In this document: piece by piece, positions 24,127-30,023 of the stretch
How positions within the stretch are numbered: position 1 is the first letter of the stretch
Layout of the letters: each line of letters opens with the position of its first letter
Assembly (NCBI RefSeq): GCF_003670115.1
Contig: NZ_QQTY01000003.1
Coordinates: forward strand, 1 to 64,000
DNA length: 64,000 bases
Direction of reading: 5' to 3'
From: Natronorubrum halophilum
GTDB taxonomy: Archaea > Halobacteriota > Halobacteria > Halobacteriales > Natrialbaceae
Position numbers and translations under genes: made by a program
Notes under the pieces: model-generated
What the model was told of the DNA's origin: nothing
Databases searched by the model: none
The model's input: only the letters and a program-made list of their open reading frames with translations

Positions 24127-25005
24127 TCAGTCGTCCTGCTGGCTCTTCTCGACGTGGATGTCCTCGAACGCGAGGTCGCGATCGGTCACCTCGACCGTCA
24201 TCGAGCCCACGTTCTCGATCTCGGCGTCGATCGTGTCGCCGCCGGTGATCGCGCTGACACCCTCGGGCGTCCCGGTTGTGATCACGTCGCCCGCTTCGAT
24301 GGTCATTCCGATCGAGGCGTACTCGACGACGTCGGCGCAGCTGTAGATCATGTCGCCGGTGTTCTCCTGCTGGCGCGTCTCGCCGTTGAGCTGCAGTTCC
24401 ATCTCGAGGTCGTGCGGGTCGCCGACTTCGTCGGGCGTCGCAACGCACGGGCCGATGATGGTGAACGTGTCGTAGGACTTGCGGTTCGAGCGGTCCTGGT
24501 CGCCCCGGACGGAGACATCGAGTAGGATCGTGTAGCCGAGGATCGCGTCCCAGACGTCGTCGGCGTCGATGTCCTTGACCTCCTCACCCATGACGAACGC
24601 GAGTTCGATCTCGTGGTCGACCCGCCGATCGTGAAACGGGAGTTCGATGCCGTCCTCCGGCCCGGCGACGCTCGAGGGCGCCTTGAGGAAGTAGCCCTTG
24701 TCCTCGATGGTGAACCACTCCTCGGTGACGATGTCCTTGTCGGCGAGGGCTTCCTCGACGTGGTTCTCGTAGTTCAGTGGTGCCGCGATCACTTTGCCGG
24801 GGCGGCGGACGGGAGACTCGACGGTGACCTCCTCGAGGTCGTGGTCGGGATCTTCGTCCTCGTACTCGCTGGCGTCTACGCCCTTGCGCGCGTACTCTTT
24901 GAGGGGATCGTTCGTCTCGAGGCCGAGTCGGTCGGTGACGTCGATGACGCGGTCGTCGTCTGTGAGCAAGCCCAGTCGGTCGTCGTTGAACCTGACGAAT
25001 CGCAT
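24127..25005 (-). CDS. Fumarylacetoacetate hydrolase-family protein (probable fumarylpyruvate/maleylpyruvate hydrolase)
   Basis: The start at 25005 gives 292 residues beginning MRFVRFNDDRLGLLT. FAH-family motifs: KVIAAPLNYENHVEE, the metal-binding DHEIELAFVMG, Asp in VSVRGDQDRS, SYDTFTIIGPCVAT and DVITTGTPEGVSAI. In the gentisate pathway an enzyme of this family splits fumarylpyruvate into fumarate and pyruvate. It is transcribed away from the gentisate dioxygenase, with 172 bp between starts. A TATA-like TATTTATGTG lies about 30 nt upstream. No maleylpyruvate isomerase was seen, so it might act directly on maleylpyruvate. Confidence 0.88.
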   Translation of the reverse strand: MRFVRFNDDRLGLLTDDDRVIDVTDRLGLETNDPLKEYARKGVDASEYEDEDPDHDLEEVTVESPVRRPGKVIAAPLNYENHVEEALADKDIVTEEWFTIEDKGYFLKAPSSVAGPEDGIELPFHDRRVDHEIELAFVMGEEVKDIDADDVWDAILGYTILLDVSVRGDQDRSNRKSYDTFTIIGPCVATPDEVGDPHDLEMELQLNGETRQQENTGDMIYSCADVVEYASIGMTIEAGDVITTGTPEGVSAITGGDTIDAEIENVGSMTVEVTDRDLAFEDIHVEKSQQDD

Positions 25006-25159
25006 GGTAGGTCCACTGTCGCACGCCCACATAAATAATCCCTTCTCGATCGACGATGCGTTCGGATCGGCGGGCGTCCGTCGACCCGAACGGGAACGAC
25101 CGAGCCGTCGTCGTTCGCTCGTGAGGGCGCTTGAGGGCTCCAACACACTTATGGTCTCG

Positions 25160-25168
25160 TTTGACAAA
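25160..25168 (+). promoter_or_regulatory. Candidate operator TTTGACAAA before gentisate dioxygenase
   Basis: The nine bases form an inverted repeat (TTTG-A-CAAA) between the TATA-like box and the ATG at 25178. The identical motif lies at the same place before the LivK-like gene (28769-28777), so both may respond to one regulator. Confidence 0.35.
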
Positions 25169-25177
25169 AATGCGAAC

Positions 25178-26257
25178 ATGGCACAGCAGGATCCAGAGGA
25201 GCTCCTAGAATTGAGTTCTGACACGCGGAGTACCCTCGAGAAGAACGGCCTCCGCCCGCTCTGGGAAGTGGAAGACGATATGGGGAGCCTCCTCGACGAC
25301 CTCGAACCGAACATCTGGAAGTGGGAGGACATCAAAGCCGCCATCGACGGCATCGAGGAGGACGTCCCGATCGCCGACCTCCCGCCGGGCTTCCAGCGGC
25401 GGGTCGCGGTCCCGATCAACGCGAAGCACGCCATCTCGAATACGATCTACGTCGGCGTCCAGACGGTCTCTCCCGGGGAGACCGCTCCCTCCCACCGCCA
25501 CGCTGCCAGCGCCCTGCGGTTCACCATCGACGGGAACGAGGACATGAAGACGGTCGTCGCGGGTGAGGAGTTCCCGATGCGGGACAACGACCTCGTCACG
25601 ACGCCACAGTGGGAGTGGCACGACCACGTCAACGACTCCGACGAGACCGCCGCCTGGCTCGACGTCCTCGACCTCCCCCTGTTCCTCGACACGCTGAACA
25701 ACACCCACGTCTTCGAGAACCACGAACTCGAGCGTCAGCCGGTCACGAAGACACAGGGCTACTGGGACTCCCAGTACGGCCGCGGCCGCCCCGCGCACGA
25801 GCAAACGGACGGTTCCATCCCCGGCCCGTTTCAGGGGAACAAGGAGCCGACGCCGCCGTACCGCTTCGGCTGGGACGAGATGCTCGAGTCGCTCCGGCAG
25901 TACGCCGACAACGACGACCCGGACCCCTACGACGGGTACAGCCTCGAGTACGTCAATCCGGCCACCGCGGAGGCGCCGCTGTTTCCGACCATGTCCTTCC
26001 GCGCCCAACTGCTCAACGAGGGCCCGACGGACGCCCACTTCCATAACTCGACGGAAGTCTACTTCGTCATCGAGGGCGATGGCGCGACCCACGTCGACGG
26101 CGAGGCCTTGGAGTGGGGGCAGTGGGACCTCTTCGCCGTACCGCCGGACAGCCCGCACCACCACGAACCGGACGACGAAGCGATCCTGCTGGGTATGACC
26201 GACCGGCCGATCCTCGAGTCGATGAATTTCTACGCCGAGGCCGAAGTCTCGGAGTGA
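25178..26257 (+). CDS. Gentisate 1,2-dioxygenase
   Basis: This bicupin Fe(II) ring-cleavage enzyme opens gentisate to maleylpyruvate. The 359-residue product from the ATG at 25178 carries the first cupin's metal-ligand run SHRHAASALRFTIDG (around 102-116) and the second cupin's DAHFHNSTEVYFVIEGDG with PPDSPHHHEP. The N-terminal LRPLWEVE and the PVTKTQGYWDSQYGRGRPAHE linker are as I recall them for haloarchaeal gentisate dioxygenases. 1-Hydroxy-2-naphthoate or salicylate dioxygenase are relatives. A TATA-like CTTATGG (25149) and a TTTGACAAA motif (25160-25168) precede the start. Upstream in-frame codons are excluded because they run through the divergent gene. Confidence 0.9.
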   Translation: MAQQDPEELLELSSDTRSTLEKNGLRPLWEVEDDMGSLLDDLEPNIWKWEDIKAAIDGIEEDVPIADLPPGFQRRVAVPINAKHAISNTIYVGVQTVSPGETAPSHRHAASALRFTIDGNEDMKTVVAGEEFPMRDNDLVTTPQWEWHDHVNDSDETAAWLDVLDLPLFLDTLNNTHVFENHELERQPVTKTQGYWDSQYGRGRPAHEQTDGSIPGPFQGNKEPTPPYRFGWDEMLESLRQYADNDDPDPYDGYSLEYVNPATAEAPLFPTMSFRAQLLNEGPTDAHFHNSTEVYFVIEGDGATHVDGEALEWGQWDLFAVPPDSPHHHEPDDEAILLGMTDRPILESMNFYAEAEVSE

Positions 26258-26374
26258 GGGTGTTCGGTTCGCCTCGACTTGGAGCACCGACGGCGGCGGT
26301 ATCGGCGTGTCCGCTCCCTCGAGGACCGGCCGACTGGGTAATGCTCTTATAGATCGTCGCCATAACGTTCTCGT

Positions 26375-26560
26375 ATGGCCGAGTTCGAAAACCCGTACGT
26401 CGACGAGGATCCGTTTGTCCGGGCGCACTTCGACTGTCTGAACTGTGGCGGGAAGCTCTGGGAGTACGCGATCCAGCGCCAGATGGTCTGCGAGGACTGT
26501 CTCGACGTCTTTCCCTCGGAGGAGGTCTTCGAAGCCAGCGTCGAATCGGCCGCCAACTGA
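26375..26560 (+). CDS. Small zinc-finger (two CxxC) protein
   Basis: The 61-residue acidic protein contains CLNCGG and, 17 residues on, CEDC, a four-cysteine knuckle of the type called CPxCG-related small zinc fingers in haloarchaea. A TATA-like CTTATAG lies about 30 nt before the ATG, which supports real expression and this start. Similar proteins have regulatory roles, but its partner is unknown. It is free-standing between the dioxygenase and the aldehyde dehydrogenase. Confidence 0.7.
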   Translation: MAEFENPYVDEDPFVRAHFDCLNCGGKLWEYAIQRQMVCEDCLDVFPSEEVFEASVESAAN

Positions 26561-26850
26561 GCCGCCGAGCACCTCCGCCTTCGTCAGTCGTCACCGCAGT
26601 GCCGTTTCCGCGCTATCGCCACCGCGGTACCGACGCGTTTTCCGCGGAACGGTCACGGGAACTGCTCCGTCCGCTCGAGGTCGTCGGTGCCCGACGGAGA
26701 CGGCGGACACCTCTCTCCGTCGGACTCCATCTTGTTCGAAGCGCATACGCCCGGGTTCGCGGGCGCGAAGAATCAGGCTTCGGGAAGCTCGAGGACGCCT
26801 CGAGTGCGCCCCCGAAAAACGGATTCGACGCGGATACCCAGTCGGCGCGG

Positions 26851-28392
26851 TCAGAACGGGTACTCGCGCGGCTCGCGCTGGATCGAGATCCACTTCGTCT
26901 CGGTCACCTCGCGGAGGAACTCCTCGGTGTTGTAGCCGCCCATACCGGAGGCGCCGGTGCCGCTAAACGGGACGTGAGCCTCGTCGTTGATGGGCTGGTC
27001 GCCGATGTGGACCATCCCCGTCTCCATGCGGTCGGCGATCGACCGCGCGGTCTCGCGGTCGCCTGCGTGCACGGACCCGGAGAGGCCGAACTCCGTGTCG
27101 TTGACGATCTCGATCGCCTCGTCGATATCGGAGAAGGGGATCACCGGTGCGATGGGACCGAAGTGCTCGTTGCACGCCGCGGCCATGTCGTTCGTCACGT
27201 CGGAGAGCACCGTCGGCTCAATGACGAGCGAGTCCTCGACGTCACCAGAAGTCGAAGACTTCTGGCTGGCTAACGAATCGCTTTGCGATTCGTGAACGCC
27301 CTCGAGGTCGACGATCCCGCCGCCGGTCTCGAGCGTCGCACCCGCGTCGATCGTCTCCGCGACGTATTCGAGCATCTCGTCGCGCTGGTGTTCGTCGATC
27401 ACGGGACCGAGGTGAACCTCGTCGTGGGCGCTGCCCGCGACGAGCGACTCCGCCCGGTCGACGAGATGGGTGACGTAGTCGTCGTAGACGTCTTCGTGGA
27501 CGACGTGGCGGTTGATCGAGATGCAGACCTGTCCCTGGTGGATGAACGAACCGAAAACTGCCCCGTCGACGGCGCGCTCGAGGTCGGCGTCCGCGGTGAC
27601 GACGTGGGCGTTGTTGCCGCCCAGTTCCATCGCGGGCGTCGCCAGGTTCTCGGCCGCCGCGGCGGCGACCCGTCGACCGACCTCCGTCGAGCCGGTGAAC
27701 GCCACCACGTCGCTCTCGGGGTGGCCGGCCACGCGGTCGCCGATCTCGGAGCCGCGGCCGGTGACGACGTTGAGGACGCCGTCGGGGAGGTCCGTCTCCT
27801 CGAACAGCGTCGCGAACAGCAGGCCGCCGCTAATCGGCGTGTTCGTCGCCGGCTTGAGCACGACGGCGTTGCCGGCGGCGATGGCGGGAAGCACCGCCCG
27901 CGCCGAGAGGTTCAACGGGAAGTTCCACGGCGAGATGACCGTGACGACGCCTTTCGGTTCGCGCTTTATGAGGTGTTCCTTCCCGGGAATGTTCGACGGG
28001 GCATGTTCGCCCTTCATCCGCCGCGGCAGCGTCGCCGCCTCGCCCGCCTGGTCGGCGGTGAGGTGGTGGGACGTGTGGCCGTAGCCGGCGGTTCCGCCGG
28101 CCTCGTGCGTGAGTAGTTCGATAATCTCCTCCTCAAACTCGTGCAGCGCCTCGGTGAACTGCTGGATAACCTCCTGACGGGCTGCGGGGGGTTGGTCCCT
28201 CCACTCGGTCTGAGCAACAGCCGCCGCCTCGTAGGCGTCGTCGACGTCCGACTCGGTGGCCGCGGGAACCTCGGCGAACACCTCCCGCGTCGACGGGTCC
28301 GCGATCGGGATGGTGTCGCCGTCTCCGTCGACCCACTCGCCACCGATGTACAGTGCGTTCCAGTCCGCCCTCGGCGATATCGCGTCCGGCAT
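26851..28392 (-). CDS. NAD(P)-dependent aldehyde dehydrogenase with an in-frame hairpin insertion
   Basis: The ATG at 28392 gives 513 residues starting MPDAISPRADWNALYIGGEW. ALDH motifs are complete: ISPWNFPLNLS, VTGRGSEIGD, VAFTGSTEVGRRVA, MELGGNN (general-base Glu) and QGQVCISINR (catalytic Cys). Between GGGIVDLEGV and DSLVIEPTVLS there are about 20 extra residues rich in Ser (HESQSDSLASQKSSTSGDVE), encoded by two perfect hairpins (27245-27293). The insert keeps the frame and probably forms a surface loop. Substrate is likely an aromatic or aliphatic aldehyde; it stands next to gentisate genes. Confidence 0.9.
   Translation of the reverse strand: MPDAISPRADWNALYIGGEWVDGDGDTIPIADPSTREVFAEVPAATESDVDDAYEAAAVAQTEWRDQPPAARQEVIQQFTEALHEFEEEIIELLTHEAGGTAGYGHTSHHLTADQAGEAATLPRRMKGEHAPSNIPGKEHLIKREPKGVVTVISPWNFPLNLSARAVLPAIAAGNAVVLKPATNTPISGGLLFATLFEETDLPDGVLNVVTGRGSEIGDRVAGHPESDVVAFTGSTEVGRRVAAAAAENLATPAMELGGNNAHVVTADADLERAVDGAVFGSFIHQGQVCISINRHVVHEDVYDDYVTHLVDRAESLVAGSAHDEVHLGPVIDEHQRDEMLEYVAETIDAGATLETGGGIVDLEGVHESQSDSLASQKSSTSGDVEDSLVIEPTVLSDVTNDMAAACNEHFGPIAPVIPFSDIDEAIEIVNDTEFGLSGSVHAGDRETARSIADRMETGMVHIGDQPINDEAHVPFSGTGASGMGGYNTEEFLREVTETKWISIQREPREYPF
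27245..27293. repeat. Twin short palindromes inserted inside a coding gene
   Basis: Two perfect hairpins lie side by side. At 27245-27265 the arms CCAGAAGTC/GACTTCTGG enclose GAA; at 27273-27293 the arms ACGAATCGC/GCGATTCGT enclose TTT. Together they make most of the extra residues in the aldehyde dehydrogenase without breaking its frame. This looks like a small palindromic element that tolerates insertion into proteins. Confidence 0.7.
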
Positions 28393-28570
28393 GATCGCTT
28401 GACCGTTCACGTTCCGCGCACAAAGTTTCGTGGTAACATGTATGTCACCATCGCGTTGAGAACGAGCGGTCGGCAGGAGCCGACCGAATTCGGCCCGAAA
28501 ACGCCGGTTCAAGTGCGCTTCCGACGGATCGTCGAGTTCCGAGCCGAGTCAGTGCGGTTCCCGCTTGGTC

Positions 28571-28694
28571 TATAGTAACGACTGAAACGATCTACACACC
28601 CATCGCATCCCCGCGGTTCTCGCTCACTCCGTTCGCTCCGAACCGCGCTGCACTCGTCCGATGGGGTGTGCATCGACGTTCAGTGGCTACTATA
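28571..28694. repeat. MITE-like imperfect inverted repeat, 124 bp
   Basis: The outer ends are TATAGTA(A/G)C and its complement (GGCTACTATA), and the arms continue with ACTGAA, ACACCC(C)ATCG and GCGGTTC in mirror order, leaving a centre of GCTCACTCCGTTCGCTCC. No ORF is inside. The structure suggests a non-autonomous mobile element or a large RNA hairpin, of a kind I associate with Natrinema/Haloterrigena-type genomes. It sits in the 392-bp gap between the aldehyde dehydrogenase and LivK-like genes. Confidence 0.55.
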
Positions 28695-28768
28695 CGCATC
28701 CGCCGAATCCGACACTCCGCCGACAGGTGTCAGATATGAACCATACCATTTAATATGTTCGTGTTTCA

Positions 28769-28777
28769 TTTGACAAA
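28769..28777 (+). promoter_or_regulatory. Candidate operator TTTGACAAA before the LivK-like gene
   Basis: The motif is the same nine bases as at 25160-25168 and lies 8 nt before the ATG at 28785, just downstream of a TATA-like TTTAATATG (28749). It could allow co-control of aromatic uptake and ring cleavage. Confidence 0.35.
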
Positions 28778-28784
28778 CCACGCC

Positions 28785-30023
28785 ATGGGGAATCTTCACA
28801 GCAGCCGAACTAGGCGTTCGTATTTAAAAACGACTGGCGCGATTACAGGGGCGGCCACGTTGGCCGGCTGTTCATTGTTGAGTAGCGACGAGAGCAGCGC
28901 TGACATCACGATCGCGACGACGATCCCGCAGGAGGGCGCGTTCTCTTCGATGGCCGAGGAGATGGAACAGGGGTACGACCTCGGCGTCGCACACATCGAA
29001 GAGACGCTCGACCAGGAGGTGGAGCTGCTGGTCGAGAACGACGAGAGCGACCCGAGCGTCGTCATCGAGAGCCTCCGGAAGATGGCCGGTGACGCCGACA
29101 TGATCTGGGGGAGCTTCTCGAGCGAACTCGTGACCGCGGGCAGCAGCGTCGCGGAGTCCGAAGGGATCCCGTTCGTCGCCGCCTACTTCGCACAGGAGGC
29201 GCCGCACCGAAACGAGGACTACGAGTGGACCTACGCGGCGTTCCCGAAGTCGAGGGACGTCGCGCGGTCGACGCAGGGCCTCTTAGAGACCATTCCCGAG
29301 GGCGAGCGGCCGACCAACGTCGGCATCTGGGAGCCCAACTCCGACTGGGGCGAAGAGCAGTCGGACTCCTGGGAGGAGACCCTCGGCGACGCGGGCTACG
29401 ACATCGTCCTCAGGGAGCAGTACGAGTACGGCTCGAGCGACTTCTCGACGATGATCTCCCAGTCGGCCAACCAGAACGTCGAGGTCCTCCTGTCGGTGCC
29501 GACACCGCCGGACGGAATCACGATGATCGAGCAGATAGAGGAACGCGACTTCTCGCCGGACCTCACAAAGTTCGTTCGCGCCGCCGACCCCCAGGACTGG
29601 TGGAACGCGCTCGGCGAGAGCGGCGAGTACGTCTGCATGTGTCCGGGCTGGGTGCCCGGCATGACGGGCAACGGGAACGAAGAGATGTGGAACGCGTACG
29701 TGGACGAGTACGGACTCGAGGATGACGCGTTCATCCGCACGGCGGTCGGCGGCGGGTACAACGTCGCGCAGGTGACCGCCCAAGCGATCGACGCCGCAGG
29801 CTCTACCGACCCGTCGGACGTCCAGGGGGCGCTCCAGTCGGAGACCTTCGAGACGGTCATCGGCTCGTTCAGCTTCGAGGAGAACGGGCTGCCTACCGAA
29901 GGCGAATTGACGGCCCCGACCGGCCAGTGGCTGGACGGCAACCAGTACACCGTCTACCCGGAGACCGACGACGATCGTGCCTCCGACCTCCAGTACCCGA
30001 TTCCGGCCTGGAGCGAGCGATAA
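28785..30023 (+). CDS. Branched-chain/aromatic-acid ABC transporter binding lipoprotein (LivK-like)
   Basis: From the ATG at 28785 the 412-residue product starts MGNLHSSRTRRSYLK, a Tat motif (10-15), followed by lipobox LAGC (Cys29). The mature part is a type I periplasmic-binding fold (ITIATTIPQEGAFSSMAEEMEQGYDLGVAHIE; MIWGSFSSELVTAGSSVAESEGIPFVAAYF). An earlier in-frame ATG at 28755 is unlikely, as it coincides with the TATA-like TTTAATATG. It is followed 33 bp later by the LivH-like permease. The gentisate neighbourhood suggests aromatic acids rather than amino acids as ligand. Confidence 0.88.
   Translation: MGNLHSSRTRRSYLKTTGAITGAATLAGCSLLSSDESSADITIATTIPQEGAFSSMAEEMEQGYDLGVAHIEETLDQEVELLVENDESDPSVVIESLRKMAGDADMIWGSFSSELVTAGSSVAESEGIPFVAAYFAQEAPHRNEDYEWTYAAFPKSRDVARSTQGLLETIPEGERPTNVGIWEPNSDWGEEQSDSWEETLGDAGYDIVLREQYEYGSSDFSTMISQSANQNVEVLLSVPTPPDGITMIEQIEERDFSPDLTKFVRAADPQDWWNALGESGEYVCMCPGWVPGMTGNGNEEMWNAYVDEYGLEDDAFIRTAVGGGYNVAQVTAQAIDAAGSTDPSDVQGALQSETFETVIGSFSFEENGLPTEGELTAPTGQWLDGNQYTVYPETDDDRASDLQYPIPAWSER

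Follow-up and report, generated by a model that had tools for sequence, protein, structure and literature searches.

The question raised by this locus is how an aldehyde dehydrogenase gene of Natronorubrum halophilum can contain a double palindrome and still be read through in frame. The window, i.e., the whole stretch of 64,000 nucleotides that was analyzed, carries an ALDH gene whose nearest solved relatives are benzaldehyde/4-hydroxybenzaldehyde dehydrogenases. The initial annotation described two hairpins with 9-bp arms in this gene (27245-27293) as an inserted palindromic element adding about 20 residues without a frameshift. With a probability of approximately 0.88, the segment is one copy of a tiny, nonautonomous, double-hairpin family of mobile elements of Halobacteria, whose insertion added a 19-residue peptide and left the frame intact. 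The location proposed initially was correct, although its edges were slightly tight, the element occupying 27242-27298 and encoding 19 residues. The features of the locus are as follows.

26854 to 28392, minus strand: host gene ALDH (P0001), aldehyde dehydrogenase of 513 aa, PF00171
27237 to 27241, plus strand: target CGACG, in agreement with the family consensus CRNCG
27240 to 27243, plus strand: CGTC tag at the left edge
27242 to 27298, plus strand in hairpin order and antisense to ALDH: whole element, 57 bp, defined by empty orthologues
27245 to 27265, plus strand: hairpin 1, 9-bp stem CCAGAAGTC/GACTTCTGG and loop GAA, supported by covariation in the family
27266 to 27272, plus strand: linker CTGGCTA, placing the copy in the subfamily with a YTGGC linker
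27273 to 27293, plus strand: hairpin 2, 9-bp stem ACGAATCGC/GCGATTCGT and loop TTT, supported by the family
27294 to 27298, plus strand: right end GAACG, whose opposite strand reads CGTTC and resembles a CGTY tag

The element DNA (TCACCAGAAGTCGAAGACTTCTGGCTGGCTAACGAATCGCTTTGCGATTCGTGAACG, 57 bp, with bounds set by comparison with empty sites) encodes residues 366 to 384 of P0001, 19 residues reading VHESQSDSLASQKSSTSGD, and the ALDH reading frame crosses it without a stop or shift, as originally claimed. The arms of hairpin 1 (27245-27253/27257-27265) and hairpin 2 (27273-27281/27285-27293) are perfect. Folded as single-stranded DNA, the 57-mer forms exactly these two hairpins (-18.2 kcal/mol), compared with a mean of -6.2 for 200 shuffles, none of which was as good (z = -6.2). 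The right end GAACG places CG at either edge of the element, as a 2-bp overlap or duplication, so that a 2-bp duplication is indistinguishable from a shared end. Aligned to a bacterial ALDH structure, the protein matches in two halves, with residues 361 to 382 between them; an AlphaFold2 model of ALDH made without an alignment had a mean pLDDT of 35, too low to use. The genes nearby encode an FAA hydrolase (24130-25434, minus strand), a two-cupin protein resembling gentisate 1,2-dioxygenase (25160-26257) and a periplasmic binding protein (28755-30023), and the region from 24130 to 30023 is probably an aromatic-compound degradation cluster.

Comparison with orthologues indicates a clean insertion at an empty site. 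Rather than all sharing the segment, 19 ALDH orthologues (L004-L006 and 16 others; 15 of the same clade and four of the same genus) lack the 19 residues. The same-genus orthologues L004-L006, approximately 60% identical, are each 19 residues shorter at this position. The closest orthologue found in the class-wide search, L471 (genome G227; 79.6% identical), has the exact empty site, GGGIVDLDG/VEDSLV, which is the empty form of GGGIVDLEG-VHESQSDSLASQKSSTSGD-VEDSLV in the window.

The same element was found at hundreds of places in Halobacteria when haloarchaeal genomes were searched. Two flexible patterns were used, which required neither hairpin 2 nor the inner part of hairpin 1; the first matched in 40 of 61 genomes of the host's taxonomic family and the second in 102 of 292 genomes of the class, with up to 24 copies in one genome, while reversed-pattern controls gave no match in the same 61- and 292-genome searches. 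Named records with matches include Haloterrigena, Natrialba, Halorubrum, Haloarcula, Halobacterium, Halogranum and Natronomonas. The collection comprises 270 distinct copies; individual counts refer to 265 copies with enough flank, 262 distinct pattern matches or 255 distinct copies. Its consensus has the target C[AG]NCG, followed by TC[CA][CT]CAGAA, and the end AACG, in the layout CRNCG, TC[CA][CT], hairpin 1 (CAGAA..TTCTG), linker, hairpin 2 and AACG. The C at -6 and the G at -5 of the target are each found in 257 of 270 copies, with TC next, and the tag is exactly CGTC in 224 of 255 distinct copies, the remainder being mostly one-base variants. Copies are mostly 54 to 60 bp long, and approximately 37% are 55 or 56 bp. 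The ALDH element scores 68.4 bits against the covariance model of the family (E = 1.8e-26 in the window).

Conservation of hairpin 2 and of the inner part of hairpin 1 was not built into the patterns. Hairpin 1 is extended by at least 3 pairs in 77% of the 262 distinct matches (2.7% in shuffles), and the stem of hairpin 2 has at least 6 bp in 87% of them (1.8% in shuffles). In addition, among 255 copies, hairpin 1 is closed by a T-A pair in 128 and by a C-G pair in 113. These stem statistics, together with the T-A/C-G swap, indicate that the hairpins persist although their sequence varies. Counted from CAGAA, the stem of hairpin 1 has a length of 8 or 9 bp in 218 of 255 copies, with one further pair when the closing pair is included; hairpin 2 mostly has 9 to 10 bp, and loops of 3 nt predominate in both (217/255 and 225/255, respectively). 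Loops vary freely and are often mutual reverse complements (GAA/TTC and GGA/TCC), as if the hairpin tips invert.

In bacterial records and IMG/VR contigs, pattern matches had no combination of two hairpins, tag and end among the matches listed; two bacterial records passed a loose scanner by weak stems only and carried no CGTC tag. True copies thus appear, from their sequence features and among the matches listed, only in Halobacteria. The empty ALDH site, CCTCGA-CGCCC-TCGAGG, and several IS605 palindromes suggested insertion into hairpin loops; this was ruled out by the joined flanks of the 270 copies, whose mean stem was 3.33, versus 3.49 in controls.

In-frame copies occur in unrelated conserved genes, with essential ones such as that of RNA polymerase among them, and encode recognizably the same peptide, as had been predicted for haloarchaeal proteins. 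Read-through of the host gene was called with a codon model, for which 251 haloarchaeal reading frames served as the training set, in 25 of the 265 copies with enough flank; by manual grouping, with orthologues counted once, they represent approximately 19 genes. All 25 share one orientation and phase, and their peptide is hydrophilic, with the pattern DV-ES--S-ANQNA--SGD. The hosts (Pfam/NCBIfam) are RNA polymerase subunit A' (RpoA1), leucyl-tRNA synthetase, a class I tRNA synthetase, MutS, TnpB, quinolinate phosphoribosyltransferase (QRPTase), enoyl-CoA hydratase, shikimate dehydrogenase (AroE), SDR enzymes, a P-type ATPase, a histidine kinase, S9 peptidases and an FAA hydrolase. On sequence comparison, the cleanest in-frame case is RpoA1 of genome G299, in which a clean 54-bp insertion encoding VRESGALASQPEAVASGD is missing from the ten same-genus orthologues examined; RpoA1 of G130, 98% identical over the aligned part, has the exact empty site.

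The share of the in-frame configuration predicted from target-site phase and stop codons alone is 47%, and the competing sense phase, with a more hydrophobic and basic peptide, was expected at 28% and occurs in none of the 25. The single orientation and phase can be attributed to the target motif occupying chiefly two codon phases in haloarchaeal genes, to the observed frame being almost never stopped, and to a soluble peptide rich in Ser, Asp, Glu, Asn and Gln that suits surface loops of acidic halophilic proteins. A further 14 copies are flanked on both sides by coding sequence with a shift or stop between, several of them lying between neighboring genes or in decayed transposon genes. Furthermore, copies of 55 to 56 bp cannot be in frame, so the family overall is not built for coding.

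Older in-frame copies are present in the same genome as the window, where a scan with the covariance model R1 gave approximately nine confident copies plus remnants. The older in-frame copies are positioned as follows.

G000:C4:219337-219390 (L484): older in-frame copy
G000:C2:283458-283511 (L489): older in-frame copy
G000:C2:481149-481186 (L492): older in-frame copy
G000:C1:448132-448169 (L490): older in-frame copy
G000:C2:455302-455358 (L488): older in-frame copy

The hosts are ArgG, TrpC, PurA, a thioredoxin-reductase-like protein and an FAD oxidase, all with the element in the same orientation, and the peptides include EQRSSANQNASRSGDAE. Two copies are reduced to approximately 38 nt, with the peptide still recognizable (ANQNASRSGD). 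Aligned with solved structures, ArgG and PurA have 17 to 18 extra residues exactly at the element, and TrpC has a gap at the element position.

Among 131 copies that have a length divisible by three and are not in frame in genes, 130 keep the gene-compatible frame open, compared with 72 to 80% when stems and loops are randomized; other frames also exceed this null and the copies are related, so the evidence for frame selection is suggestive only. Selection on that frame, with Halobacteria hosting protein-invading DNA that continues to seed core proteins, RNA polymerase among them, with disordered peptides and that may move by a single-strand mechanism, is a tentative proposal that we consider possible but on balance doubtful.

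The first genus-level pattern search found look-alike hairpins adjoining IS605 transposons and inside TnpB, and empty counterparts exist for the TnpB and IS605-flank copies. In the C-terminal tail of TnpB the element lies in the sense orientation, so the orientation rule is not universal. A copy of 57 to 60 bp lies at a fixed spot near the end of TnpB in L074 and L083, between aatcaacg and cctgtggagactgc, and this site is occupied in many genomes (L091, L133, L134, L143, L147 and others), with stems varying between genomes. Guide RNAs of TnpB are thought to be encoded near the end of its gene. Another copy, L325 (G247:C5:92401-92453), may form the end of a protein with a DnaK-like acidic tail, near whose stop codon it lies.

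The ALDH insertion has a twin. In L384 (G164:C9:58319-58371), from another family, the same insertion occurs at the same base, with 54 of 57 bases identical to the element in the window, while the rest of the gene differs by 23.5%; only 5 of 490 windows are as low in divergence as the insertion. In the ALDH tree, the window gene groups with L471 (support, 100/99) and L384 with L473 (96/93), and both L471 and L473 are empty. With the insertion in two lineages that have empty sisters, a single insertion followed by simple descent is insufficient. Three histories are conceivable: separate insertion of two near-identical young copies into one site, transfer of a short stretch between lineages, or an old insertion that was repeatedly lost. 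Same-site insertion or short transfer fits the low divergence better than repeated loss.

Three other readings of the segment were weighed. It might be suspected of being an ancient loop native to the surface of this ALDH subfamily, palindromic by chance and immobile, since the site is a length-variable loop at which other ALDH groups (L453-L465) carry acidic or Ser-rich loops that are similar in length but unrelated. However, the 15 same-clade and four same-genus orthologues are empty, the closest relative has the exact empty site, and the DNA fits a family model whose copies lie at unrelated loci; on this sequence evidence the reading is in the main refuted, and its remaining probability is negligible. 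That the peptide is held by selection for a function, rather than being tolerated by chance, would account for the near identity of the insertion in L384 against the divergence elsewhere in the gene. Nevertheless, this seems improbable: the sisters L473 and L471 are empty, as expected of transfer or of independent insertion of young copies, third positions, which the peptide would not need, are conserved too, and the same peptide occurs in unrelated proteins. A regulatory element that spread as a structured RNA, be it a terminator, a riboswitch or a guide RNA, is in keeping with the stable hairpins and with the many copies close to TnpB genes, whose guide RNAs overlap the gene end, but the copies lie in unrelated genes on both strands and their stem sequences differ widely, which makes it very improbable. 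An Rfam search with the element returned no family match at E values up to 1.

The most serious competitor, although still unlikely, accepts mobility and differs on origin: the unit would be a terminal-only PATE, i.e., the fused ends of an IS200/IS605 transposon with the core deleted, moved by the TnpA of that transposon, as in the 52-bp elements of Haloquadratum. PMC3119063 describes 52-bp haloarchaeal elements that carry no transposase and no inverted terminal repeats, have palindromes close to their ends and use a 4- to 5-bp target. The present family likewise has a palindrome near each end and lacks a terminal inverted repeat; its target, CRNCG, is similar to its right end, CAACG, and many copies lie inside IS605/TnpB elements. 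Against this, no parental transposon with the family termini was found among 26 Y1_Tnp loci (23 from eight copy-rich genomes and three from the window's own genome), none of which ends in hairpin 1 and hairpin 2; copies near these loci are whole double-hairpin units. In L075, the TnpB element is complete without the unit, so the unit inserted into that element and is not its terminus. Moreover, two genomes that carry copies (G310 and G279) gave no Y1_Tnp matches.

The double-hairpin family can be compared with several known systems. The Rickettsia palindromic elements (RPE) of Ogata and Claverie are small palindromic repeats found between and inside genes, with in-frame insertions in conserved proteins that are kept where tolerated (PMC2229807, PMC3733652). 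The haloarchaeal palindrome likewise lies in frame in many unrelated conserved genes, but classic RPE measure 105 to 146 bp, whereas the present family measures 54 to 60 bp, forms two separate hairpins and has its own target (CRNCG), peptide and host class. In its mode of action the family works like RPE; the similarity to Rickettsia elements noted initially holds in this sense, descent being a separate matter.

Head-to-head dimers of CGTC-tagged REPs include RPE-4 and RPE-6, and intragenic dimers encode 20 to 30 residues, including some in tRNA synthetase and DNA repair genes (Di Nocera 2013; PMC3733652). These REPs have no dedicated transposase and were named from five bacterial phyla and no archaea (PMC3733652). 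The haloarchaeal family shares the CGTC tag, stems of 8 to 9 bp, paired dimer units, intragenic coding dimers and, at the loci examined, the lack of an associated transposase gene. In contrast, REP loops are 4 to 5 nt and those of the family mostly 3 nt, the right tag of the family reads CGTT, and the REP stem starts with AT, where haloarchaeal copies mostly have C-T and only a CGTCAT/CGTCAC subset could comply. The REP tail CCA has no separate counterpart after hairpin 1, and the linker TTGGCT contains TGG, the CCA of a second unit read backwards. With loop length differing and the tail and stem-start rules not clearly followed, the family is not filed as a CGTC REP. It also differs from MITEs, as its ends, CGTC.. 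and ..AACG, form no inverted repeats beyond CGTY.

The repeats of Suyama et al. (2005) are reportedly palindromic elements of Methanocaldococcus jannaschii. They are reported as an archaeal repeat fused into protein genes (cited in PMC2229807), from a different archaeal class than Halobacteria, and the likeness is one of description only. PATEs or terminal-only IS605 elements of Haloquadratum walsbyi, the shortest of approximately 52 bp, are likewise haloarchaeal, with palindromes near both ends, no transposase gene and no inverted terminal repeats (PMC3119063, accessible text); coding insertions were not met in that text, the comparison resting on description and not sequence. PATEs lack a target duplication; the present family has CG at both edges, which may be a 2-bp duplication or part of the element end. 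A 2025 survey covering bacterial and archaeal REPs does not contain the word "halo" in its text, and no earlier report of this haloarchaeal family was found in a partial coverage of the literature, in which one may be missed.

The family shows that protein-entering mobile palindromes extend beyond Rickettsia and other bacteria; they are widespread in free-living archaea and have entered an RNA polymerase subunit there. The family accounts for odd insertions of 18 to 20 residues in haloarchaeal protein alignments. It also offers recent, clean insertions with empty relatives in hosts that are in principle genetically workable, making two long-open questions testable: what moves CGTC-type repeats, and what insertions of this kind cost or bring to the host protein.

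The element inserted 3' of the CG in a CRNCG target of ALDH, antisense to the gene. With a length of 57 bp and the right frame open, the insertion gave ALDH a hydrophilic peptide of 19 residues and left its frame unbroken, and copies seen inside genes are those insertions that left the host gene intact. The element is presumably tolerated by host proteins rather than beneficial, and ALDH carrying it is probably still active. IS200/IS605-type Y1 transposases recognize hairpins in single-stranded DNA. Movement of the family may be effected in trans by an enzyme with such recognition, and a Y1 transposase is the natural suspect because the target CRNCG resembles the right end CAACG. The link between haloarchaeal PATEs and transposons of the IS605 type (PMC3119063) points the same way. 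In L118 (G015:C3:20500-26500) and L159 (G051:C1:791200-797000), IS605-type genes are accompanied by four copies in both orientations, as if IS605-type transposons were a preferred landing ground, like SMR-A elements in Haloquadratum.
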